Shown here piece after piece: positions 43,103-54,554 of a stretch of 64,000 nt of DNA. How positions within the stretch are numbered: position 1 is the first letter of the stretch; every line of letters begins with the position of its first letter. Under the pieces are notes generated by a model. It did not search any database, was not told where the DNA came from, and saw nothing but the letters and a program-made list of their open reading frames with translations. The position numbers were made by a program, and so were the translations under genes. The DNA is from Gluconacetobacter sacchari (GTDB lineage: Bacteria > Pseudomonadota > Alphaproteobacteria > Acetobacterales > Acetobacteraceae): assembly GCF_014174255.1 (NCBI RefSeq), contig NZ_JABEQJ010000013.1:62001-126000 (forward strand), read 5' to 3'.

Positions 43103-44209
43103 ATGCGGCGGACGGCAAGCCGGTTTTTCCTCCTCGCTCCGTCCGCATTGGCCGCGGCCCTGCTGGCCGGCCCGGCGCGCGGCGACGACGCGTCGCTGTT
43201 CGCGCCTCCGGTGCCGCCGCTCGTCGCGTCCGGGCCGCTGACCTTCGCGCCGCTGGTGCGCAAGGTGGTGCCGGCGGTGGTCAATATCGCCGTGACGCAG
43301 GATGCCGACGACCGGGCCAGGCGCCAGCCGGTGCCGCCGGGCGTGAAAGGCACGCCGTTCGAACACCGGTTCCGCGACCGGATGCGCTCGCGCGGCGAGG
43401 AGATGATCGGCGCCGGCTCCGGCTTCATCATCGACCCCAGCGGCGTGATCGTGACCAATACCCATGTGGTGGGCGAGGCCGACCGCATCACCGTCTCGCT
43501 GTCCGACGGCACCGAATATCCGGCGCGCCTGGTCGGCAGCGACGACCTGACCGATATCGCGGTCATCACCATCCAGGCGCCGCGTCCGCTGCCCTATGTC
43601 ACCTGGGGCGACAGCCGGCAGGTCAATGTCGGCGACTGGATCATGGCGGCGGGCAATCCGTTCGGGCTGGGGTCGTCGGTCACGGCGGGCATCGTCTCGG
43701 CGCGCGGACGTGATATCGGCGCCAGTCCGTTCGACGATTTCCTGCAACTGGACGCCCCGATCAATCCGGGCAATTCGGGGGGGCCGTCCTTCAATCTCGG
43801 CGGGCAGGTGGTGGCGCTGAATACCGCCATCGTGTCGCCGACCGGCGGATCGGTGGGAATCGGCTTCGGCATTCCCTCGGAAATCGTCGCCCCCATCGTC
43901 GCCGAACTGCGCCGCAGCGGGCATATCGATCGCGGCTGGCTGGGCGTCACTCTGGCGGATGACGACGGGCATGCCGGCGTGCGCATCACCGACATCGACC
44001 GGGGCGGCCCGGCGGAAAAGGCGAAGCTGAGGACCGGCGACATCGTGCTGAACGTGGGCGAGGAGCCGGTCGACAGCGCGCGGAGCCTGATCCGCGCGGT
44101 GGCGGCGGACCATCCGGGATCGGCCGTGCAGGTGCATATCCGCCGCCACAATACCGACCTCACGGTTTCGGTCGTCGTTGGCCATCGCCCCGCCGACATG
44201 GACGACTAG
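43103..44209 (+). CDS. DegP/HtrA-like periplasmic serine protease with one PDZ domain
   Basis: The 368-residue protein has a signal peptide (RFFLLAPSALAAALLAGPAR) and a trypsin-like domain with triad H121 (VIVTNTHVVGEAD), D151 (SDDLTDIAVI) and S225 (INPGNSGGPSF; the usual Leu after GGP is Ser). One PDZ domain follows (about 275-360: LGVTLADDDGHAGVRITDID and KLRTGDIVLNVGEEPVDSA). With a single PDZ it is DegS-like in layout but has no membrane anchor beyond the signal. It would degrade misfolded envelope proteins. The next genes are a two-component system, so it may belong to an envelope-stress set. Confidence 0.9.
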   Translation: MRRTASRFFLLAPSALAAALLAGPARGDDASLFAPPVPPLVASGPLTFAPLVRKVVPAVVNIAVTQDADDRARRQPVPPGVKGTPFEHRFRDRMRSRGEEMIGAGSGFIIDPSGVIVTNTHVVGEADRITVSLSDGTEYPARLVGSDDLTDIAVITIQAPRPLPYVTWGDSRQVNVGDWIMAAGNPFGLGSSVTAGIVSARGRDIGASPFDDFLQLDAPINPGNSGGPSFNLGGQVVALNTAIVSPTGGSVGIGFGIPSEIVAPIVAELRRSGHIDRGWLGVTLADDDGHAGVRITDIDRGGPAEKAKLRTGDIVLNVGEEPVDSARSLIRAVAADHPGSAVQVHIRRHNTDLTVSVVVGHRPADMDD

Positions 44210-44319
44210 CAATTTCCCCGCTCTGGCCAGCCCCCCGCAGGCCGGGTAAGGTCATGGATTGGTGCGGAGAAGCATGCTTCGACCGTGCCGATGCGAAGCC
44301 AGAGCGGAGCGGGACCGAC

Positions 44320-45000
44320 ATGCATATCCTGGTCGTCGAGGATGATCCGACCGTACGCAATTTCGTCGCCAAGGGCCTGCGCGAGGCGGGGCATCTGGTC
44401 GAACCGGTCGATAACGGCAAGGACGGGCTGTTTCTGGCCGTCAGCGAGAATTTCGACCTGATCATCCTGGACCGCATGCTGCCGGGCGGCATCGACGGGC
44501 TGCGGCTGCTGGAGACCATTCGCGCGCAGAACAATACCACGCCGGTGCTGCTGCTGTCGGCCCTGGCCGATGTCGACGACCGGGTCCAGGGCCTGAAGGC
44601 GGGCGGCGACGACTACGTGACCAAGCCGTTCGCCTTCAGCGAATTGCTGGCGCGGGTCGAGGCGCTGTCGCGTCGCGGCCGCAGCGAGAACGCGCCGCAG
44701 ACGCGCCTCGCGGTGGCGGACCTGGAGATCGACCTGCTGTCGCGCAGCGTGCGGCGCGGCGGCCAGCGGATCGACCTGCAACCGCGCGAATTCAGGCTGC
44801 TGGAATATCTGATGCGCCATGCCGGCCAGGTCGTGACCCGCACCATGCTGCTGGAAGGCGTGTGGGACTATCATTTCGATCCGCAGACCAACGTCATCGA
44901 CGTCCATGTCTCGCGCCTCCGGCAGAAGGTGGACAAGCCCTTCGACACCCCGCTGATCCACACGATCCGCAATGCCGGCTACATGCTGCGGGCGGATTAG
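44320..45000 (+). CDS. OmpR-family response regulator
   Basis: The 226-residue regulator has a receiver domain (about 1-115) with acidic pair E7/D8/D9, phosphoacceptor D51 in LIILDRMLPGG and the conserved Lys in DYVTKPFAF. A winged-helix DNA-binding domain follows (about 130-225: LQPREFRLLEYLMRHAGQVV and IDVHVSRLRQKVDKPF). Start 44320 fits the canonical MHILVVEDD N-terminus and follows GGAG. It is 21 bp before its cognate histidine kinase. Targets unknown; the operon also encodes two periplasmic proteins. Confidence 0.92.
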   Translation: MHILVVEDDPTVRNFVAKGLREAGHLVEPVDNGKDGLFLAVSENFDLIILDRMLPGGIDGLRLLETIRAQNNTTPVLLLSALADVDDRVQGLKAGGDDYVTKPFAFSELLARVEALSRRGRSENAPQTRLAVADLEIDLLSRSVRRGGQRIDLQPREFRLLEYLMRHAGQVVTRTMLLEGVWDYHFDPQTNVIDVHVSRLRQKVDKPFDTPLIHTIRNAGYMLRAD

Positions 45001-45021
45001 GGCGGAACGCGCGAACTGGCC

Positions 45022-46584
45022 ATGTCTCCCGCACCGCCGACACCCCCGGACCCGGCCCAGGGTTCAGCGGAACGGCCGCGGCGGCGTTTCCGCCTTCCGC
45101 GTTCGGCCGGCCTGCGCTTCTCGCTGGGCTATGGCCTGCTGTTCGCCCTGTCGTCGATCCTGTTCATGTCCTTCATCTGGTGGGGCACGATCGGGTTCCT
45201 GGAACGGCAGGTGGAAACCGCGATCAATGCCGACGCCCGGGCGCTGAGCCAGCGCTGGGCCGAGGGCGGGCTGCCGACGCTGGCCCTGACGATCGACGAC
45301 CGGCTGGAACAGAATCTGGACGACGACGCGATCTACCTGATGGTCGACCCGACCGGCCACCGGCTGGCCGGCAACCTGTCGGAATGGCCGGCGCGGGTGG
45401 TCCGGACCGACCGGTGGTACAGGCTGGACGTCACGCGCGCCGGCATGCGCGACACGGCGCAGATCCACGCCTTCACGCTGCCCGGCGGCTTTCGCCTGCT
45501 GGTGGGGCGCGATGTGCGCGCGCGCGCGGTGCTGCGTCGGCTGCTGACGGATTCGCTGCTCTGGGCATGGATGATGGTCACGCTGCTGGCGATCTGCGGC
45601 GCCGCGCTGGTCCACAGCATGTTCCGCCGCATGATCAAGTCGGTGGCCCAGACCACGCAGGCCATCGCGCATGGCGACATGTCGCGCCGCATGCCCCTGG
45701 TCGGCAATGGCGACGAACTGGATCAGGTGGCCGAGGCGATCAACGAGATGCTGGACCGCATCGTGCGCCTGATGGACGGGGTGCGCCAGGTGTCCAACGC
45801 CATCGCCCACGACCTGCGCACGCCGATCACCCGTGCCCGCACCCAGCTTGAAGACGCCGCCCTGCATGCCCGCGACACCGCCGAGCTGCGCGCGGCGGTC
45901 GAACGCGCGGTGGGCGACCTGGACAACGTGACCGCGGTGTTCGAGGCCCTGCTGCGCATCGCGCAGATCGAGGCCGGGTCCCGCCGCTCGGCCTTCGCGC
46001 CGTTCGACCTGGTGCCGCTGCTGACCGATATCGGCGACCTGTACGAGGCCGTGGCCGAGGAGCGCCAGATCCATCTGGTGCTGCGCCTGCCGCCCGACCT
46101 GCCCTTTTACGGCGACCGGGCGATGATGCAGCAGGCGGTGGCCAACCTGCTGGACAACGCCATCAAATTCTCGCCCCCGGGCGGCACCGTGACCCTGGCC
46201 GGCGCTCTGGGGCCGGCGCTGCCGGGGCTGGCCCCGGGCATGCCGACGCACGACGTGGTCTCGATCGCGGTCACCGACGAAGGGATCGGCATGAACGAGG
46301 CCGACCTGGCCCGGGCGTCGGAACGCTTCTTCCGCGCCGAGGCCGCGCGCAACACCCCCGGCGCCGGGCTGGGCCTGTCGCTGGTCCAGGCGATCGTCCA
46401 GTTGCATGGCGGCACGCTGCGCCTGTATCCGCGCCAGCCGGGGCTGGCGGTCCGCATGGTGATGCCGGTGCCGCGCGAAGCAGTCCCCCGGTCCGGCCGT
46501 CCGCTCCGGCGGGCCGCCGCCCCCGGCCGAAGGCCGGCGAGGGTAACGGAGACTTCACGATCGCCCCATGGGGGTGATACATGA
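45022..46584 (+). CDS. Two-component sensor histidine kinase
   Basis: The 520-residue kinase has an N-terminal membrane helix (about 30-55), a periplasmic sensor of about 110 residues, and a second helix (about 180-200, LLWAWMMVTLLAICGAALVH). A HAMP domain follows (about 205-255), then the H-box with H263 in NAIAHDLRTPITRARTQLE. The HATPase domain has N-box NLLDNAIKFSP, G1 VTDEGIGMNEAD and G2 PGAGLGLSLVQAIVQLHGG. The last 35 residues are Arg/Pro-rich and not part of the fold. It is partner of the OmpR-type regulator just upstream and overlaps the next gene by ATGA. Confidence 0.92.
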   Translation: MSPAPPTPPDPAQGSAERPRRRFRLPRSAGLRFSLGYGLLFALSSILFMSFIWWGTIGFLERQVETAINADARALSQRWAEGGLPTLALTIDDRLEQNLDDDAIYLMVDPTGHRLAGNLSEWPARVVRTDRWYRLDVTRAGMRDTAQIHAFTLPGGFRLLVGRDVRARAVLRRLLTDSLLWAWMMVTLLAICGAALVHSMFRRMIKSVAQTTQAIAHGDMSRRMPLVGNGDELDQVAEAINEMLDRIVRLMDGVRQVSNAIAHDLRTPITRARTQLEDAALHARDTAELRAAVERAVGDLDNVTAVFEALLRIAQIEAGSRRSAFAPFDLVPLLTDIGDLYEAVAEERQIHLVLRLPPDLPFYGDRAMMQQAVANLLDNAIKFSPPGGTVTLAGALGPALPGLAPGMPTHDVVSIAVTDEGIGMNEADLARASERFFRAEAARNTPGAGLGLSLVQAIVQLHGGTLRLYPRQPGLAVRMVMPVPREAVPRSGRPLRRAAAPGRRPARVTETSRSPHGGDT

Positions 46585-46934
46585 CGACCATTAGGCTCCA
46601 ATCCATGCATTCACAGCCCCTCGCGATCACGGCACTGGCGGTCATGGGCCTGTACCTGGGCGGCATGGCGCCGCCGCCGGACATGGACAGCCCGCTGGCG
46701 GCGGCCGGCCATGAAGCGGCCGACCCGAACCATCCCGTGATCGTCACCAGCGACAGCCGGGCCTTCTGCAACCAGTTGGCCGCCGTCATCGATGCCTACG
46801 GGCCGCCCCTGCGGCACGAAGTCGATGATTTGCGTGCCCAGGGCACGCATCTGTGCCATGAAGGCAAGGTGCGCTCGGGCATCGTTCAACTGCGCCGAGC
46901 CCTGATGGCCTTGAAGGAAGACACGCATTCATGA
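46581..46934 (+). CDS. Small exported protein of unknown function in the two-component operon
   Basis: A 117-residue protein beginning in the kinase stop (ATGA). A hydrophobic stretch (MHSQPLAITALAVMGLYLGG, about 9-28) looks like a signal peptide or anchor. The mature part has two cysteines (RAFCNQLAAVIDAYG and GTHLCHEGKVRSG) that could form a disulfide, and a helical end with GIVQLRRALMALKED. No family recognised. Its own stop overlaps the next start, so kinase, this protein and the SIMPL protein are probably one transcript. Confidence 0.72.
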   Translation: MTTIRLQSMHSQPLAITALAVMGLYLGGMAPPPDMDSPLAAAGHEAADPNHPVIVTSDSRAFCNQLAAVIDAYGPPLRHEVDDLRAQGTHLCHEGKVRSGIVQLRRALMALKEDTHS

Positions 46935-47677
46935 CCGAGTTCCGCCGTCATGCGCTGCGGGCTGGTGCCCTGGCAGCCGCCATTCTCCTGCCCCTCGCCG
47001 CCTCCGCGCAGGAGATGCCACCTGAGCCGGAGCCCGGCATGCCGGAAATGCTGCCCCGCCATGGCCCCTCCGGCACCGAGCTGACACTCTCGGGCACCGG
47101 CACCGTCCATGCCGCGCCCGACCGGCTGACGGCGACCCTGTTCGCCGAAGCCGGCGCCGCCAGTGCGGCGGCGGCACAGGCCCGCGTCAACGCCCTGGCC
47201 AATACGGCCATCGACGCCGCCAAGGCGGCCGGCGGGCTGACGACGGTGACCGAGGATTACTCGACCCAGCCGAACGAAGGCGGCAAGGGCCCGGCCTGGA
47301 CCGCCCGGCAGACCGTCCGCCTGACGGGGGCCGATGGCGCCGCGCTGCTGGCCCTGGTGGGGCAGCTCCAGGCGAAGGGGCTGGCGCTGAGCAGCCTCGA
47401 CTGGTCGCTGTCGGACGACCTGCGCCAGAGCCTGACCCGGCGGGCCGAAGCCGCCGCGCTGACCGACGCACGGCAACGGGCCGACGCTGCGGCGAAGGTG
47501 CTCGGGCTGAAGATCACCTCGATCCGCTCGATCACGCTGTCCGACCGTGGTGGCCCGCGCCCGATGCCGATGATGATGATGGCCCGCGCCGCCTCGGCCC
47601 CCGTGGCGCCCGGCGCCCCGGCCGAACAGCAGGACGTCTCGGCCTCCGCCTCGGCCACCTTCGTCCTCTCCCGCTAA
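46931..47677 (+). CDS. SIMPL (DUF541) domain periplasmic protein
   Basis: The 248-residue protein has a signal peptide (LRAGALAAAILLPLAASAQE) and a SIMPL/DUF541 domain with LTLSGTGTVHAAPDRLTATL, VTEDYSTQPNEGGKGPAWTA and ARQRADAAAKVLGLKITSIR. A Met-rich PRPMPMMMMARA stretch lies near the end. Bacterial SIMPL proteins form periplasmic or envelope-associated oligomers with poorly defined stress roles. It is last in the regulator-kinase-small protein operon and is followed by a strong terminator. Confidence 0.88.
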   Translation: MTEFRRHALRAGALAAAILLPLAASAQEMPPEPEPGMPEMLPRHGPSGTELTLSGTGTVHAAPDRLTATLFAEAGAASAAAAQARVNALANTAIDAAKAAGGLTTVTEDYSTQPNEGGKGPAWTARQTVRLTGADGAALLALVGQLQAKGLALSSLDWSLSDDLRQSLTRRAEAAALTDARQRADAAAKVLGLKITSIRSITLSDRGGPRPMPMMMMARAASAPVAPGAPAEQQDVSASASATFVLSR

Positions 47678-47769: not shown

Positions 47770-50187
47770 TTAGAAATCGACGCTTGCCGTGCCGCCGACG
47801 AAGAAGGGCGCCGCAATCGTATAGGAGGTGCTGCCGCCGGCAATCCTCGTGCCATGCACGCCGATGGTCGAGAGACCATTGGCATTGGTACCGTTGACGA
47901 AGCCGAGATAATGCCTGTTCGTGATGTTTTGCAGGTTCAGCCGCAGGGTCGGCGCCTTCATCGGCCCGATATCCTTGAAGCGATACCCCGCATTCACGTC
48001 CATCGTCAGATAATCCGGGATAGACTGATCGTTGATGAAGGTCGAATACTGCTTCGCGACATATTTCAGTCCATAACCCGCGAAGAGATGACCATCGTCA
48101 TAATCGAGATGGAAGCCGAACTGATATTTCGGCGTCTGGGGCGCGAACTTGCCCTTGCTGAACACATAGTCGCCGTTGCCTGCGCCGACGTTGCTGTCCG
48201 TCCGCGCATTGACATATTCGGCCGAGAAATAGGGGCGCAGATGGTAGAGGATCGGCCGCGTCCCGATTTCGAAATCGACACCGTCGGCGTGTGACCCGCC
48301 CCCGTTGATGCTGCGCGAATAGGTATAGCCGGTCGGATCGATCACCGTCTGGCTGTAGAGGCGATTGGTGAAATTATAGTGGAAATACGTGATCGTGCTG
48401 CTGACCAGCGGCCCCTGGTAGCGCCACCCGAATTCTTCCGAAATCGAAATCTCCGGCTTGACGTTCAGGTTGGCCTTGGTGGCGTACCCCTGGCCTTTCT
48501 TGTAGGCGCCTGAATCAAACAGGGACGTGTTCTGCGGAATGCGGAAATTCGTCGTGGAAGAAGCAAAAAGCTGGTTTTCGTTGTTGATCTTGTAGCGGAT
48601 CGAAACGGCGGGCAGCGGCTCCTGCCACGATCCGTTGACGTAGGGGCCGGTCGACGTATCCGGCAGGAAATTATGTCCCTGGCGATTGATGAACGTGTAT
48701 TTCAGACCGCCTTCCAGCGTCAGCCGGTTGTTCAGCAGCGACAGCGAATCGTCGATAAACAGGGTATTGACGCGCGTCTGCGTCATCCAGTCGCGATATT
48801 GCGCCGTGATGCCATTGGACAGGACCAGGTTCGGGCCACCGCCGTACTCGTTGAGCGGCGCGCCGGTTTCCATGTTGACCAGGCTGTACGGTCCGGTCTG
48901 GATCTGCTTGGAATATTCGAACCAGTAGCCGACCGTCAGGCGATTGATGCCCGTATGCAGGCTGAGCTTCGTGACCGAGCCGGGGCGGTAGGTCTGCGTA
49001 TTGGACGGGTTATAGAGCAGCAGCGACGAGGTGTTGGACGCGTTATAGGGCCCGATGGACGCCGAAAGCGACTGCGCTCCGTATTGCTGGCTCTTGAGGC
49101 TTTCGTTATACGCGCCGCCGCCATTGCCGTTGCCGTACCAGAAATAGGGCGTTTCCGTCAGCGTCAGATTGTCCGTCAGCGTGAAGGTGGACGGCGCCGA
49201 GGCGTAAATGTTGGTGAACGGGTTGCGATGCAGCTTGTAATAGTTGCCGCTTGGGCTCTTCGGATTCCATGTGTCGCTGTAGGTGTTGTGAATCCCGAGC
49301 GATTTCCAGGTCGCGAGCGTGCTGGTCGGGAACAGGATGCTTTCGCTCTGGTTGCCGATCAGCGAGAACGAAATGACATTGCCGTCACCCCAGGCATTCA
49401 CCCATTTGGTCTCGCCGTGGAACTTGGTCTGGTTGCCGGGGCCGCGCCACGAATGCTCGTCGGCGTACGAGAAGGACATGAAGCCCTTGAGGTGGCTCCG
49501 TCCGATCAGGCCCGTATTGACGCGCGCGAAGATCCGCTTGGAATCGTAATTGCCGTACGTGCCGTCCAGATGGGCACCGAAGCGATCGGTCGGGTCGATC
49601 AGATACATGTCGACCGCGCCACCCGTCGCGCTGATATGCGGGCTGTCGAGATCGGCCGAACCCTGCTCGACATTGATCATGCGCAGGTTTTCGGAATCGA
49701 CGATTTCCTGCGGGTAGACGGCGTAGTTTCCGATATCGTTGATCGGAAACCCTTCGAGCGTAAAGCCGATCTGGGTCTGGTTCAGGCCGCGCATCGTCAT
49801 CTGGCCGCCGTTGATACCCAGCGGATCGACCGACGACGTGTTCACGCCCGGCAGATACTGGATCAACTGCATCGGGTTCAGGCCCGGCGTCTGCTTCTCG
49901 ATGAATTCGGAGGTGACGGTCGAACGGGACTTCGCCGCGTCTTCATGGACCATCATGCCGCCACCGACCGCGGTATGACGCTGGCCATGCACTTCCAGCA
50001 CTTCGGAACGCGTGTCCGTCGGCGCCGTCGCCCCCATCATCGACGGAGCGTTATCGCCCTGACGCGCGGCCTGATCCGGCACCTGAACTGCGGCGGGTGC
50101 CGCCGGTGCCGTCGCCGTCTGAGCCATCGCATGGGATGTCAGAATCGTCGAACAACACAAGGCCGCCCATATCGAACGAAAACGCAT
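47770..50187 (-). CDS. TonB-dependent receptor, first of a tandem pair
   Basis: The 805-residue outer-membrane receptor has a signal peptide (MRFRSIWAALCCSTILTSHA) and a plug domain (about 60-215: FIEKQTPGLNPMQLIQYLPG, QMTMRGLNQTQIGFTLEGFP). The 22-strand-type barrel ends [18 protein letters not shown] precedes the ATG. It is strongly paralogous to 50884-53487 from signal peptide to C-terminus and more distantly to 1290-3740. No TonB, ExbBD or sigma/anti-sigma genes are adjacent. Expression is probably controlled through the long 5' leader described at 50368-50630. Ligand unknown. Confidence 0.92.
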   Translation of the reverse strand: MRFRSIWAALCCSTILTSHAMAQTATAPAAPAAVQVPDQAARQGDNAPSMMGATAPTDTRSEVLEVHGQRHTAVGGGMMVHEDAAKSRSTVTSEFIEKQTPGLNPMQLIQYLPGVNTSSVDPLGINGGQMTMRGLNQTQIGFTLEGFPINDIGNYAVYPQEIVDSENLRMINVEQGSADLDSPHISATGGAVDMYLIDPTDRFGAHLDGTYGNYDSKRIFARVNTGLIGRSHLKGFMSFSYADEHSWRGPGNQTKFHGETKWVNAWGDGNVISFSLIGNQSESILFPTSTLATWKSLGIHNTYSDTWNPKSPSGNYYKLHRNPFTNIYASAPSTFTLTDNLTLTETPYFWYGNGNGGGAYNESLKSQQYGAQSLSASIGPYNASNTSSLLLYNPSNTQTYRPGSVTKLSLHTGINRLTVGYWFEYSKQIQTGPYSLVNMETGAPLNEYGGGPNLVLSNGITAQYRDWMTQTRVNTLFIDDSLSLLNNRLTLEGGLKYTFINRQGHNFLPDTSTGPYVNGSWQEPLPAVSIRYKINNENQLFASSTTNFRIPQNTSLFDSGAYKKGQGYATKANLNVKPEISISEEFGWRYQGPLVSSTITYFHYNFTNRLYSQTVIDPTGYTYSRSINGGGSHADGVDFEIGTRPILYHLRPYFSAEYVNARTDSNVGAGNGDYVFSKGKFAPQTPKYQFGFHLDYDDGHLFAGYGLKYVAKQYSTFINDQSIPDYLTMDVNAGYRFKDIGPMKAPTLRLNLQNITNRHYLGFVNGTNANGLSTIGVHGTRIAGGSTSYTIAAPFFVGGTASVDF

Positions 50188-50367
50188 ATGTTACCCCTCT
50201 CCCGAGCAAAATCGCCCCAAAAGCTGTCTGCCCGGTCAGTCTGTTGCAGACCGACCCTATAATAAAACTCTCTCCACTTTTCACGTGCTTATTATGGATT
50301 TCATAAAATGTTCAAAAACATATTCAACGTTCACAATAAATCACAATAAAATTTTGCACTGCGCACG

Positions 50368-50399
50368 AAAAAGCACTCCGCCATTTCAGAAATGGCGGA
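50368..50399 (-). terminator. Terminator-like hairpin inside the receptor leader (attenuator candidate)
   Basis: Arms 50377-50386 and 50390-50399 make a perfect 10-bp stem with a 3-nt loop. On the minus strand GTGC and five T follow. The stop codon of the upstream frame lies at the loop (50386-50388). The equivalent hairpin at 53681-53701 has a changed but still paired stem. Confidence 0.6.
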
Positions 50400-50520
50400 T
50401 CCTCCCATGGGTCCGGACCGTCCCGATGGGCGGTCCATCCGCGTTCCATATCCATATGGAACGCTTAAGTAACGATATTGCAGCGCGATGATAGAGTCGA
50501 GGTTTCTTCATCCCAGCCAT
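50386..50520 (-). CDS. Candidate leader peptide (44 residues) upstream of first receptor
   Basis: The ATG at 50518-50520 opens a 44-codon frame about 18 nt after the predicted transcription start. It begins MAGMKKPRLYHRAAISLLKR, then reads SIWIWNADGPP, and ends in the loop of the attenuator-like hairpin. The frame at 53729-53824 aligns codon for codon without gaps over 31 codons (MAGxKKxR, then AISLLxRSIWxW). Rare codons ATA and TTA recur, unlike the GC-rich genes around. No clear Shine-Dalgarno precedes this copy, so translation is uncertain. Confidence 0.45.
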   Translation of the reverse strand: MAGMKKPRLYHRAAISLLKRSIWIWNADGPPIGTVRTHGRIRHF

Positions 50521-50544
50521 GCTTGCGGCGCAATGGCAGACGTC

Positions 50545-50573
50545 ATCTGCCCGGCTCATCCTGCCCTTGTCAA
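50545..50573 (-). promoter_or_regulatory. Predicted sigma-70-type promoter of the receptor leader
   Basis: On the minus strand TTGACA (50573-50568), a 17-nt spacer and GCAGAT (50550-50545) resemble -35 and -10 boxes. The same arrangement (TTGACA, 17 nt, ACAGAT) occurs at 53876-53848 before the second receptor. The -10 is weak, consistent with an activated promoter. Confidence 0.55.
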
Positions 50574-50630
50574 CGCACTTCCTGACCGATCGCACAACAA
50601 AGCGCCGACCTTTGATATCTTTGCAACAGT
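50567..50630 (-). promoter_or_regulatory. Conserved upstream block shared by both receptor promoters
   Basis: About 64 bp here match 53870-53932 with only a few changes and one 1-nt gap, including 35 consecutive identical bases directly at and upstream of the -35 box. Conservation beyond the core promoter suggests an activator or repressor site common to both receptors. Confidence 0.6.
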
Positions 50631-50782
50631 TCGGGGCGTGCCGTTCGCGGGTGAAAAACCCCCACTGCTCGCGCGATGGGACACGGCCGATCCGGTCCCG
50701 CCAGTCCCCGGAAGACCGTCCCCCGGCATGTCTCGCAGGTGGTCCTGCATCGAACCGCCGCGGCGCGCGGAATACCGCAAAA

Positions 50783-50842
50783 ACAAACCCCGCCACGGCG
50801 GCGGGGTTTGTCAGCAGTCCCAGCCCGGACAACGGTCCGGGC
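50783..50842 (-). terminator. Double terminator after the second tandem receptor
   Basis: The nearer hairpin pairs GCCCGGAC (50823-50830) with GTCCGGGC (50835-50842). The stronger one pairs 50783-50794 with 50800-50811 (12-bp stem) followed by a T-run on the minus strand. The first stem repeats that of the 47700 terminator, so the terminator was duplicated with the gene. Confidence 0.88.
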
Positions 50843-50883
50843 GTTCTTGTTGAGCAGGCGGTCGTCCCGCCCGCCCTTTGACG

Positions 50884-53487
50884 TCAGAACCCCGTGCTGA
50901 TCGACGCAAGCGCAGCGAAGGGCGAGGCGATCGTATAGGTCGGCGCGGCCGGTGTGATCTTGGCCCCATTGGTCGCCGTGGTGCCAAGGGCGGTAACCCG
51001 CGGGCTGGACACCGAGCCCAGATACCGGTTGTCCGAGATATTCTGCAGGTTCAACTGGATATGCGGGCTCTTGAAGAAGCCCCAGTCGCGGAAGCGATAG
51101 CCGACCGAGATGTTCATCCTGACATAGCCCGGAATGGACTGGTCGTTGATGAAGGTCGAATATTGCCGGGCAACGTATTTGAGGTTGAAGCTGCCATATT
51201 CATGGCCGTTATCGTAATCCAGCCCGAACCCGAACTGATATTTCGGCGCCTGCGGGGCGACCTTGCCCTTCGTCGCGGCGGCGCCCGACGTCGTGTAGGT
51301 CTTGGTTCCGACTTTTATGGTTGCCGTATCCACGAGGTTGCTGTCGGTCCGCGCGTCGAGATATTCGGCCGAGAAGTAGGGGCGGATATTATAGAGCGGC
51401 CGCGTGCCGATTTCGAAATCCACGCCGTTGCTGTGCGCGCCACCCGCGTTCAGGTTCGTCGTCCAGTAGTTGGCCGGATTCTCCGGATCCACCGTGGTCT
51501 GCGAATACAGGCGGTTGGTGAAGTTGTAGTGGAAATAGCTCAGCGAGGACGCCACGAGCGGCCCCTGGTAGCGCCAGCCGAATTCCTCGGAAATCGAGAT
51601 TTCCGGCCTCACCGTGCTGGAACCATGCGTGCTGTAGCCGCCGTTGCTGTAATAGGTGCCGGCGTCATACAGGCCGTAATTGGCCGGCTCGCGGAAGTTG
51701 GTCGACACCGACGCGAAGAGCTGGTTCTCGTTGTTGACCTTGAAGCGGAAGGCCGCCGTCGGCAGCGCCGTGGCCCAATGCTGCGTGATATACGGGCCGG
51801 TCGAGGTATCCGGCAGGTTGTTCTTTCCACGCCGCGAAACGATCGCGTATTTCAGCCCCGCATCGATCGTCAGGCGGTTATGAAACAGCGACAGCGTATC
51901 GCCGATGAACGGAACATGGATCGTCGTCTGGGTCACCGAATCGCGATACTGGGCGGTCATCCCGTTGGACAGCACCAGATGCGGGCCGCCACCCCACACA
52001 TCCACCGGGCTGCCGTCCGGCGCGATCATGCCATAGGGGCTGGTCATCATCTGCTTCGAATATTCGAACCAGTAGCCGATCATCAGCCGGTTCACGCCAT
52101 TCGTCAGCGTCACCTTGGTCACGCTGCCCGGACGATAGGTTTCCGTGATCGTCGGACCATATAGCAGGATATCGTTGGCGGCCCCCTTGGCGCTGGAACT
52201 GGTATAGCCGCCGATCGATCCGGTTACCTTATGCGATCCATATTGCTGGCTTGCCAGATTTTCCGAATAGGCGCTGCCACGGCCACCGTCGCCGTACCAG
52301 AAATATGGGGTCTCGGTCAGCACAAGGTGATTGGTCAGCGTAAAAGTCGAGGGTGCGCTGGCATAGATGTTGGTGAACGGATTCTGGTTCAGCTTGTAGT
52401 AATTATAGTTCGCGGCCGTGACGGTGTCCTGGGGCGACTTGTAGACGGTCGGCAGGTTCGTCCCCGTCCATTGCGACGCATAGACGGTATTCGAAACCGT
52501 GGCGCCGTTCGCGTCCTTGCTGGTCGCGATCGGGCCACCCATGACGCCGATGCCGTATTTCTTCCAACTGGACATGTTGACGGTGGGGAAAGCGCTGCTG
52601 ACACCCGTATTGCCGACGATGGCCAGCGAGATGCGGTTGCCCTGCCCCCAGTCATTCACCACCTTCATTTCGGCATGCTTGCGGCTGGAATGGCCCGGGC
52701 CGCGCCACATATCCTGCTCCGCATCCGAGAACGAGAAATAGGCGCGCATATTGGTATTGCCGATCAGGCCGGTATCGATGCGCAGAAAGCCCCGGGTGGC
52801 GCCATAGGACCCATAGGTAAAGTCCGTCCTGCCGCCGAACCTCTTCTTGGGGTCGATCATGTACATGTTCACCGCCCCGCCCGTGGCGTTGATCGACGGG
52901 CTGTCCAGGTCGGCCGACCCCTGCTCCAGATGGACGGTGCGCAAATTCTCGGAATCCACGATCTCCTGCGGATATACCTGGAAACTGCCGATATCGTTGA
53001 TGGGAAAGCCTTCGAGGGTGAAGCTTATCTGCGCCTGGGTCATGCCGCGCACGGTCATGTTGCCACCCGTCAGGCCCAGCGGATCGCTGTCCGAGGTGTT
53101 CACGCCCGGCAGAAGCTGGATCAACTGCATGGGGTTCAGGCCGGGCGCCTGCTTTTCGATATAGTCGCGCGTGATCGTCGATACCGATTTCGGCGCGTCT
53201 TCCTTCACCATCAGGCCGCCCCCCAGGGCCTGACGATTCACGCCGTCGGAATAGGTATGGCCGACGATATCCACGTCTTCGTTACGGACGTCGGTCGGTG
53301 CCGTGGCCCCCAGCATGGACGGCTCGGCCTGCGTCTGGTCCTGCCCCTGGTTCCCGGTGCCCTGCCCCTGGACCGATCCAGCGGCGCCGGGCGCAACGGG
53401 CACCGCCGGCGCCGTCGCCTGGGCCAGCGCGTGAGACGTCAGAATCGTCGAACAACACAAGGCAGCACAAATCGAACGAAAACGCAT
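50884..53487 (-). CDS. TonB-dependent receptor, second of a tandem pair
   Basis: The 867-residue receptor starts with a signal peptide nearly identical to its neighbour (MRFRSICAALCCSTILTSHA). A Gln/Gly-rich linker precedes the plug (YIEKQAPGLNPMQLIQLLPG, NMTVRGMTQAQISFTLEGFP). The barrel ends AALASISTGF with a terminal Phe. It is about 60 residues longer than its neighbour, partly in extracellular loops (for example SWKKYGIGVMGGPIATSKDA). Such loop differences within conserved barrels suggest different ligands. ATG 53487 was chosen over 53523 because it matches the paralogue's start. A paralogous leader lies upstream. Confidence 0.92.
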   Translation of the reverse strand: MRFRSICAALCCSTILTSHALAQATAPAVPVAPGAAGSVQGQGTGNQGQDQTQAEPSMLGATAPTDVRNEDVDIVGHTYSDGVNRQALGGGLMVKEDAPKSVSTITRDYIEKQAPGLNPMQLIQLLPGVNTSDSDPLGLTGGNMTVRGMTQAQISFTLEGFPINDIGSFQVYPQEIVDSENLRTVHLEQGSADLDSPSINATGGAVNMYMIDPKKRFGGRTDFTYGSYGATRGFLRIDTGLIGNTNMRAYFSFSDAEQDMWRGPGHSSRKHAEMKVVNDWGQGNRISLAIVGNTGVSSAFPTVNMSSWKKYGIGVMGGPIATSKDANGATVSNTVYASQWTGTNLPTVYKSPQDTVTAANYNYYKLNQNPFTNIYASAPSTFTLTNHLVLTETPYFWYGDGGRGSAYSENLASQQYGSHKVTGSIGGYTSSSAKGAANDILLYGPTITETYRPGSVTKVTLTNGVNRLMIGYWFEYSKQMMTSPYGMIAPDGSPVDVWGGGPHLVLSNGMTAQYRDSVTQTTIHVPFIGDTLSLFHNRLTIDAGLKYAIVSRRGKNNLPDTSTGPYITQHWATALPTAAFRFKVNNENQLFASVSTNFREPANYGLYDAGTYYSNGGYSTHGSSTVRPEISISEEFGWRYQGPLVASSLSYFHYNFTNRLYSQTTVDPENPANYWTTNLNAGGAHSNGVDFEIGTRPLYNIRPYFSAEYLDARTDSNLVDTATIKVGTKTYTTSGAAATKGKVAPQAPKYQFGFGLDYDNGHEYGSFNLKYVARQYSTFINDQSIPGYVRMNISVGYRFRDWGFFKSPHIQLNLQNISDNRYLGSVSSPRVTALGTTATNGAKITPAAPTYTIASPFAALASISTGF

Positions 53488-53666
53488 GGAATCCCCCCCT
53501 CGCCCGCGTGACGAAAGCGTCAAATGCTGTCCGCGCGGTCAGTTTGTTACAGGTTCATCCTATAATGAAATTTCCTTCACTTTCCATCCATTCATTACGA
53601 AATTCACTCAATTTTCCAAAAAAATATTCGGCAACATACATAAATTGAAATAAATATCTATACAGA

Positions 53667-53701
53667 CAAAATAAAACGCACCACCATTAGAGAAATGGTG
53701 G
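53667..53701 (-). terminator. Terminator-like hairpin in the second receptor leader
   Basis: CCACCATT (53681-53688) pairs with AATGGTGG (53694-53701) around a 5-nt loop, followed on the minus strand by TGCG and a broken T-run (TTTTATTTT). Compared with 50377-50399 one stem pair changed from G-C to A-T on both sides, a compensatory substitution. Confidence 0.58.
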
Positions 53702-53728: not shown

Positions 53729-53824
53729 TTATCGACGGCCCATCACGCGCCATAGCCATATGGAACGATCAAGTAACGATATTGCGCCACAAAGGCAGCG
53801 TCGGCTTTTTTTCAGCCCAGCCAT
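53729..53824 (-). CDS. Candidate leader peptide (31 residues) upstream of second receptor
   Basis: The ATG at 53822-53824 follows AGGA at close spacing and opens a 31-codon frame (MAGLKKSRRCLCGAISLLDR, then SIWLWRVMGRR) ending at TAA 53729-53731, 28 nt before the hairpin. It is colinear without gaps with the frame at 50386-50520. Shared residues cluster in the start and in AISLLxRSIWxW. DNA identity over that second block is almost complete, so selection could be on RNA structure or an operator instead of peptide. Confidence 0.5.
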   Translation of the reverse strand: MAGLKKSRRCLCGAISLLDRSIWLWRVMGRR

Positions 53825-53847: not shown

Positions 53848-53876
53848 ATCTGTCCGGCGCATCCCGTTCTTGTCAA
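53848..53876 (-). promoter_or_regulatory. Predicted promoter of the second receptor leader
   Basis: TTGACA (53876-53871) with a 17-nt spacer to ACAGAT (53853-53848) on the minus strand. The predicted start is about 17 nt before the upstream frame, matching the spacing in the paralogous copy. Confidence 0.55.
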
Positions 53877-53957
53877 CGCACTTCCTGACCGATCGCACAA
53901 CAAATCGCCGACCTTGGCATCTTTGCAACAGTGTGGTTACACGCGCCTTCGGCGCAC

Positions 53958-53990
53958 AAAAAAAACCCCGCCGCGCACGCGGCGGGGTTT
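53958..53990 (-). terminator. Rho-independent terminator of infC
   Basis: A 13-bp stem, 53963-53975 with 53978-53990, and a 2-nt loop. The T-run on the minus strand is 53958-53965 read in complement. It lies 28 bp after the infC stop. Confidence 0.9.
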
Positions 53991-54017
53991 CCCCGATTAC
54001 CAAGGAAGGCCGGACGA

Positions 54018-54554
54018 TCAGCGGGGCGAGAGCACCATGATCATCTGACGGTTTTCGAGCTTGGGCATCTGCTCGACCTTCGCCTGCTCGTCCATTTCGG
54101 TCCGGATGCGTTCCAGCACCTTGATGCCCAGATCCTGGTGAGCCATTTCGCGCCCGCGGAATCGCAGCGTCACCTTGACCTTGTCGCCCTCGCCGATGAA
54201 CGACTTCATGGCGCGCATCTTCACCTGATAGTCGTTCTCGTCGATATTCGGCCGGACCTTGACCTCTTTGATCTCGATGACCTTCTGCTTCTTTCGGGCC
54301 TCGTTCCGCTTTTTCTGCTGCTCGTACTTGAACTTGCCGTAGTCGAGGATCTTGGCGACCGGCGGTTCGGCGTTCGGGCTGATTTCCAGCAGGTCGAGGC
54401 CGACGGCATAGGCACGGCCCAGCGCGTCCCGCGTGGCCATCACACCCAGCATTTCCCCATCGGCATCGATCAGACGCACCTGGGGAACGCGGATTTCCTC
54501 ATTGACACGGGGGCCCTCGCGGTTAGGCGGAGTGGGCATCGGGGGTCTGGCTAT
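54018..54554 (-). CDS. infC: Translation initiation factor IF-3, probable AUA start
   Basis: IF-3 binds the 30S subunit and checks initiator tRNA and start codon. The sequence shows the N-terminal [19 protein letters not shown], the linker [18 protein letters not shown], and the C-terminal domain [20 protein letters not shown] and [17 protein letters not shown]. The first ATG (54539) has no Shine-Dalgarno. An in-frame ATA at 54552-54554 is preceded by AGGAG at 6-nt spacing and adds MARPP-, a common IF-3 N-terminus. infC uses non-AUG starts (AUU in E. coli) for autoregulation, so I placed the start at ATA, giving 178 residues. thrS lies upstream on the same strand. Confidence 0.9.

Follow-up and report, generated by a model that had tools for sequence, protein, structure and literature searches.

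Ribosome-mediated attenuators of the trp type consist of a promoter, a short frame, a terminator-like hairpin and the structural gene. RutR (YcdC) proteins are TetR-family regulators of pyrimidine catabolism, and the RutR box has the letters TTGACCA-NN-TGGTCAA. In Gluconobacter oxydans, a cobalamin riboswitch precedes the TonB-dependent receptor gene GOX_RS06220, according to PMC5756330. The alphaproteobacterial sRNAs CrfA and SisA-D of the alphaR8 family are described as acting in trans on TonB-dependent receptors in PMC12559287, and the RutR consensus is given as a palindrome of about 16 bp in PMC10891134.

We compared with these systems the leaders of two tandem TonB-dependent receptor genes, R1 and R2, in a window of Gluconacetobacter sacchari DNA (the whole stretch of 64,000 nucleotides that was analyzed). 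Like a trp-type attenuator, each leader has a promoter-like block, a short frame and a terminator-like hairpin before the receptor gene; it differs in that the frame is not kept as a peptide and stops at different places in the two copies, and in that there is no conserved antiterminator. With the riboswitch of G. oxydans the leader shares the position of a structured region upstream of a receptor gene in an acetic acid bacterium, but it has no Rfam match at the gathering threshold: the window yielded 0 matches at this threshold and 20 below it (E up to 5), none of them to a cobalamin riboswitch. Most of the sub-threshold matches fall on C+G-rich terminator-like repeats around 50779-50867 and 53927-54020 and were taken as chance. 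The likeness to CrfA and SisA-D, which are short RNAs controlling receptors in the same bacterial class, concerns a leader RNA that is predicted only; moreover, those sRNAs act in trans in the published description, whereas the leader RNA has no Rfam match and pairs with neither receptor start clearly better than shuffles do (20, 140, 134 and 110 of 200 shuffles were equally good). With the RutR box, the leaders have in common a 16-bp palindrome of equal geometry. Among the best matches listed from the open-access literature, no leader of such kind was recognizable.

The two receptor genes and their upstream regions

The genome (G000) comprises 4.83 Mb and the genus group 14 genomes. The gene order on the minus strand is a threonyl-tRNA-synthetase-like gene, infC (IF-3), R2 and R1. 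R1 (47770-50187) encodes 805 aa (PF00593 E 2.6e-33, PF07715 E 4.1e-12) and R2 (50884-53487) 867 aa from the ATG (PF00593 E 5e-30, PF07715 E 2.1e-12, both computed on a longer frame starting at 53523). The proteins are 60% identical (480 of 802 positions). In the receptor tree R1 clusters with receptors of G004 (83%) and G005 and R2 falls outside; despite this branching, the signal peptide of R2 is like that of R1. A plus-strand cluster adjoining R1 (43103-47677) encodes a trypsin/PDZ protease, a response regulator, a histidine kinase and a SIMPL-domain protein, and includes a small ORF that matched no Pfam family.

About 50 nt on the 3’ side of the R2 stop (50822-50870, including GCCCGGAC...GTCCGGGC) match the sequence directly 3’ of the infC stop in relatives. 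Eight of 13 relatives could be aligned there, each scoring above its own 300 shuffles; the strongest matches (L123, L125, L126 and L133) scored 43-46 with shuffle maxima of 20-23, and the present 3’ flank of the own infC scored just 22 against L125 and 19 against L126. Judging by these alignments, leader 2 and R2 apparently came in as an insertion that separated infC from its original 3’ flank. A similar C+G-rich terminator-like repeat is found 5’ of both leaders (50779-50809 and 53960-53990; 71% identity over 31 nt).

An earlier reading of the window from its letters alone (the sequence-only reading) had reported the same ordered elements before both receptor genes. The two upstream regions are indeed colinear on the minus strand and 73% identical over about 410 nt, with 88% identity over one stretch of 78 nt and a block of 36 identical nt that contains the distal box and the -35 (50566-50601 in copy 1, 53869-53904 in copy 2, minus strand). 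Its estimate of some 180 nt from hairpin to receptor ATG also holds, the distance being 189 nt for R1 and 193 nt for R2. The duplicated control region is partly confirmed.

Since fourfold-degenerate sites of R1 and R2 are identical in just 53% of cases (135 of 253; 41% is expected for unrelated sites), the block is conserved beyond the neutral expectation. The first 24 codons are unusually alike (88% identical as DNA, with the same base at 14 of 20 synonymous third positions, which is above most later segments), so that the 73% over the rest of the leader is perhaps close to neutral. On this comparison, the 5’ ends of R1 and R2 may have been shared after the genes separated. Inside the presumed transcript, the segment GCAATATCGTTACTT...CGTTCCATATGG (50452-50481 and 53756-53785, minus strand) has runs of 15 and 12 identical nt. 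On both strands of the own genome it was found, at up to two mismatches, in the two leaders and at one site with a single mismatch on C48; the reversed-pattern control gave two matches.

Promoter-like elements, hairpin and short frame

The upstream edge of the distal block is marked by CTGTTGCAAAGAT, the same in both copies (50617-50629 and 53919-53931), which is colinear with CTGTTGCATATAT before another receptor family in G003, G007 and G011. It is followed by a palindrome-like box, TTGTGC-GATC-GGTCAG, matching at 9 of 12 positions (50582-50597 and 53885-53900), and by TTGACA-17-GCAGAT in copy 1 (50545-50573) with its counterpart TTGACA-17-ACAGAT in copy 2 (53848-53876), all on the minus strand. 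Taken alone, the boxes are not significant (shuffle P 0.087 and 0.060); they align colinearly with TTGTCC-GGAC-GGTCAG in the L039 receptor family. As to the promoter proposed in the sequence-only reading, its hexamers and spacing are present in both copies, but the -10 is poor (2 of 6 matches to TATAAT, counted by eye) and a promoter scan called no sigma-70 promoter on the minus strand.

A profile of the two leaders was searched against about 129 kb of receptor upstreams and the window. Its best non-self matches were the colinear promoter blocks of one other receptor family with members in G003, G007 and G011 (L039 E 0.024, L041 E 0.24, L046 E 0.87), and the reverse search from this family returned leaders 1 and 2 as best non-self matches (E 0.078 and 0.16); the likeness was first spotted by eye, and these E-values are not blind. 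L039 and L041 have TTGAGG-17-AATACT (read by eye) in place of TTGACA-17-GCAGAT, and their GGTCAGG starts, by our own reading, about 80 nt upstream of the putative start codon. In the 14 genus genomes, the distal-block model R1 reached E <0.01 only at the two leaders and at three L039-type upstreams. Twelve further matches (E 0.002-0.05) came from 397 family genomes, searched with stricter filters and 12 candidates scored per genome, and tblastn detected no receptor-like sequence at these 12 loci.

Nearer to the ATG, a -10-like element (TATTATAGG at 50256-50264 in copy 1, CATTATAGG at 53559-53567 in copy 2, minus strand) has no recognizable -35. This element lies within a stretch of about 95 nt that resembles the sequence upstream of the closest receptor orthologue (L029 in G004). 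The AT-rich upstream of L029 was the best non-self match (E 0.023, or 0.035 in a larger set; profile columns 41-137) of a proximal profile. Because this profile covered no more than the 185 nt adjacent to the ATG, it does not by itself show how far upstream the homology extends. No distal part was found upstream of L029 by blastn, and the profile of the distal part gave E 18 there. The previous reading had missed that the closest orthologue has a recognizable proximal part and no distal one, which points to a second promoter on the downstream side of the hairpin.

The intrinsic-terminator-like hairpins lie at 50377-50399 in copy 1, with a T-run after it, and at 53681-53701 in copy 2, both on the minus strand. 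Pairing of the stem had been said to persist between the copies, and this is true of its core: eight of the ten pairs are common, seven unchanged and one with a compensatory change from G-C to A-T; the two end pairs, however, are lost. A single compensatory pair between two sequences supports the hairpin only weakly, and with that pair the hairpin is the only leader structure that has any comparative support. The T-run begins about 4 nt past the stem. A scan of both strands found two terminator-like sites compared with 0.9 and 0.8 in shuffles, which is near the chance number. Helices H1 and H2 of copy 1 each lose two pairs in copy 2 without compensation; between the two copies, whose predicted folds differ, no conserved mutually exclusive antiterminator was found. 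The whole leader folds better than shuffles in copy 1 (z -2.9) and not in copy 2 (z -0.9). Internal terminators do not appear as a general habit of receptor genes, since 7 of 109 upstreams have one in the sense direction (the two leaders included) and 7 of 109 in the antisense direction. A promoter-like block, a short region and a terminator-like hairpin are supported as anatomy, which leaves room for a small RNA ending at the hairpin.

As DNA, leader 1 was found in its own genome only among the 14 genus genomes, and leader 2 likewise among 200 family genomes, apart from six short matches of 20-30 nt with no receptor-like sequence (tblastn) at their loci. A covariance search across Acetobacteraceae, suggested in the sequence-only reading, produced no convincing homologue in 396 other family genomes or at 67 related receptor loci, and the model has one covarying pair; the outcome of this check goes largely against that reading. 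In 396 other family genomes, searched with stricter filters above 40 genomes and at most 6 candidates scored per genome, model R2 gave two weak matches; such filtered searches would miss strongly diverged copies. Both matches were rejected, one lying inside an EamA-like transporter ORF (by our reading of the translation) and the other covering an ORF end plus the gap next to it, which lies between convergent ORFs. Among the 67 receptor loci, which come from named genomes, model R2 had one match (E 1.8), some 4 kb past the L168 receptor start, and model R1 had none at E up to 5. Leader 2 was unmatched in plasmids and leader 1 in phages, so no horizontal carrier was found there, and a 20-nt core of the leader was absent from a genome collection that perhaps leaves out the own genome. 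The leader is restricted to one species in everything searched.

These results bear on whether the region is a true attenuator leader, in which the distal promoter would be the receptor promoter and the hairpin a conditional terminator within a 5’ UTR of about 350 nt, with read-through set by a signal other than the short peptide. We consider this unlikely. It could account for the perfect TTGACA within the most conserved block, for the similarity of that block to one directly before another receptor family, for the persistence of the hairpin in both copies, where one pair is compensated, and for the weak T-run, which would favor read-through; but it sits poorly with the closest orthologue, which lacks the distal part and has kept a recognizable proximal part, with the lack of a conserved antiterminator, H1 and H2 each being short of two pairs, with the non-coding short frame and with the failure to find a convincing homologue in 396 other family genomes.

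A second possibility is that nothing beyond the promoter block has a function, the segment between this block and the receptor having been copied between the genes together with the signal-peptide codons and now drifting. In our judgment this explanation is rather improbable. It fits the restriction of the leader to one lineage, the partial breakage of H1 and H2, and the lower identity of the leader (73%) next to that of the first 24 codons (88%, with 14 of 20 synonymous sites matching); the 36 identical nt, the runs of 15 and 12 identical nt and the hairpin core with its compensated pair argue against it.

The short frame runs for 44 codons in copy 1 (50386-50520), ending inside the hairpin loop, and for 31 codons by our own reading in copy 2 (53729-53824), ending before the hairpin, both on the minus strand; reading revealed no clear Shine-Dalgarno sequence before it. 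Twelve of the 27 aligned codons are changed, with 6, 7 and 6 changes at the three codon positions. Attenuation, one of the two inferences of the sequence-only reading, is rejected in the form of a leader peptide encoded by this frame: 11 of the 12 changed codons are nonsynonymous and one is synonymous, which shows no coding constraint, the stop position is not conserved, and neither is an alternative structure.

A palindrome shared by receptor upstream regions

Each proximal region contains a palindrome on the minus strand, CTGACC-GGGC-AGACAG in copy 1 (50224-50239; 10 of 12 positions, shuffle P 0.002) and CTGACC-GCGC-GGACAG in copy 2 (53527-53542; 11 of 12 positions, with none of 1000 shuffles equally good). 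The closest orthologue L029 has no such box, its best site reaching 8 of 12. For a survey, 110 non-redundant receptor upstreams were used, after removal of near-duplicates and with each leader entered as a distal and a proximal piece. At least 10 of the 12 positions of CTGACC-N4-GGTCAG were matched in 23 of these 110 upstreams, compared with 30 of 1626 flank chunks. Because some of the upstreams belong to orthologues, the independent cases number roughly a dozen by our count, and the template was picked after some sites had been seen. Without the leader pieces, 21 of 106 upstreams had the palindrome (shuffle mean 0.81 and maximum 4 in 100 rounds). With spacers of N3, N5 and N6 the counts were 2, 3 and 4 of 110, and none of the 110 upstreams matched any of four alternative half-sites.

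The 7-mers over-represented relative to shuffles in 107 receptor upstreams were TATGACA, CCTGACC, CGGTCAG and CTGTTGC. The half-site word CCTGACC occurs in 19 of 110 upstreams and in 156 of 1626 flank chunks, an excess of about twofold and under threefold; CTGTTGC shows a modest excess, again about twofold (16 of 110 and 98 of 1626). The top word was TATGACA/TGTCATA, present in 23 of the 107 upstreams (L029-L097 and L149-L215) against 2.6 expected, and in 23 of 110 against 44 of 1626 flank chunks.

The lead to RutR came from L134, one of the 12 further weak matches of the distal model, which lies in the intergenic region between a PF08362 regulator gene and a gene that resembles dihydropyrimidine dehydrogenase by our reading of its translation. 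Leaving out L134, sites matching at least 11 of 12 positions were found at 4 of 16 PF08362 loci of the genus and at 2 of 8 further ones (8 of 21 matches, 17 of 24 genomes having matches), whereas one of 65 flank stretches, each 3.4 kb long, had such a site (Fisher p 0.0013). At three of the four genus loci with a site, it lies between the regulator and the dihydropyrimidine-dehydrogenase-like gene, again by our own reading. The motif beside PF08362 genes of several relatives, three times before that gene, adds to the likeness to RutR. The differences are that the sites described here, which are candidate operators judged by their sequence, precede TonB-dependent receptors, that the outer base is often C/G and not T/A, and that the 3’ half, GGTCAG, is apparently better kept than the 5’ half by our reading.

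For co-occurrence, 24 genomes of unstated completeness were picked by us from those behind the 67 receptor loci. The box was present at the tested receptor locus in seven of them, all of which have PF08362, and in none of the seven genomes without PF08362; ten of the 17 genomes without the box still have PF08362 (one-sided Fisher p 0.056, uncorrected for kinship). G004 and G005 are without PF08362. In G001, G002 and G010, a second PF08362 gene (L229, L230 and L231) is located directly downstream of a TonB-dependent receptor gene, with a 10/12 box in between. Thus far the features of a RutR-type operator are present in G. sacchari in that the proximal boxes have the palindrome geometry and a RutR-family protein is encoded in the same genome, with two PF08362 matches (L218 and L228); the same box was not found at these regulator genes, the flanks examined containing no site of at least 10/12. 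Among the matches listed from the open-access literature, no RutR regulon of TonB receptors in Acetobacteraceae was recognizable.

Proposed layered control before each receptor gene

From the anatomy, conservation and partial homologies of both modules, and from the enrichment of the palindrome, we infer two stacked control modules before each receptor gene, with transcription possible from either promoter. The proximal module, about 150 bp before the ATG, would be the ancestral receptor promoter and operator, comprising the AT-rich sequence, the -10-like TATTATAGG and the RutR-type palindrome; a TetR-family regulator of the RutR kind may bind near its transcription start. G. sacchari would have an extra upstream module, consisting of a promoter block like that before another receptor family and then about 165 nt to the terminator-like hairpin. 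The distal promoter would mostly yield a short RNA of about 165 nt terminated at the hairpin, with some read-through, and any action of this RNA is conjectural; the receptor mRNA would start mainly at the proximal promoter. We give about even chances to this layered arrangement, in which an added promoter that makes a terminated RNA would lie upstream of an ancestral receptor promoter carrying a RutR-type operator. The simplest reading of the region is that a receptor-type promoter with a terminator was placed upstream of the ancestral receptor promoter, and the interpretation of the leader given by the sequence-only reading is partly supported.

The leader amounts to a modest form of promoter stacking and, being found in one species only in everything searched, carries less weight; the palindrome shared by receptor upstreams may be the more general lead. 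More tentatively, and with considerable doubt, we suggest that acetic acid bacteria have an unnamed regulon in which a RutR-like nucleobase-sensing repressor acts on a set of TonB-dependent receptors through a AAACCTGACC-N4-GGTCAGGTTT operator, and that two such receptors in G. sacchari gained an upstream promoter for a short terminated RNA as a second input. The searched genomes have many TonB-dependent receptors, most of them without a known substrate. An operator found in about a fifth of the tested receptor upstreams and tied to a family of pyrimidine-sensing regulators would give a handle on the induction of these receptors and perhaps on the substrate that they import.
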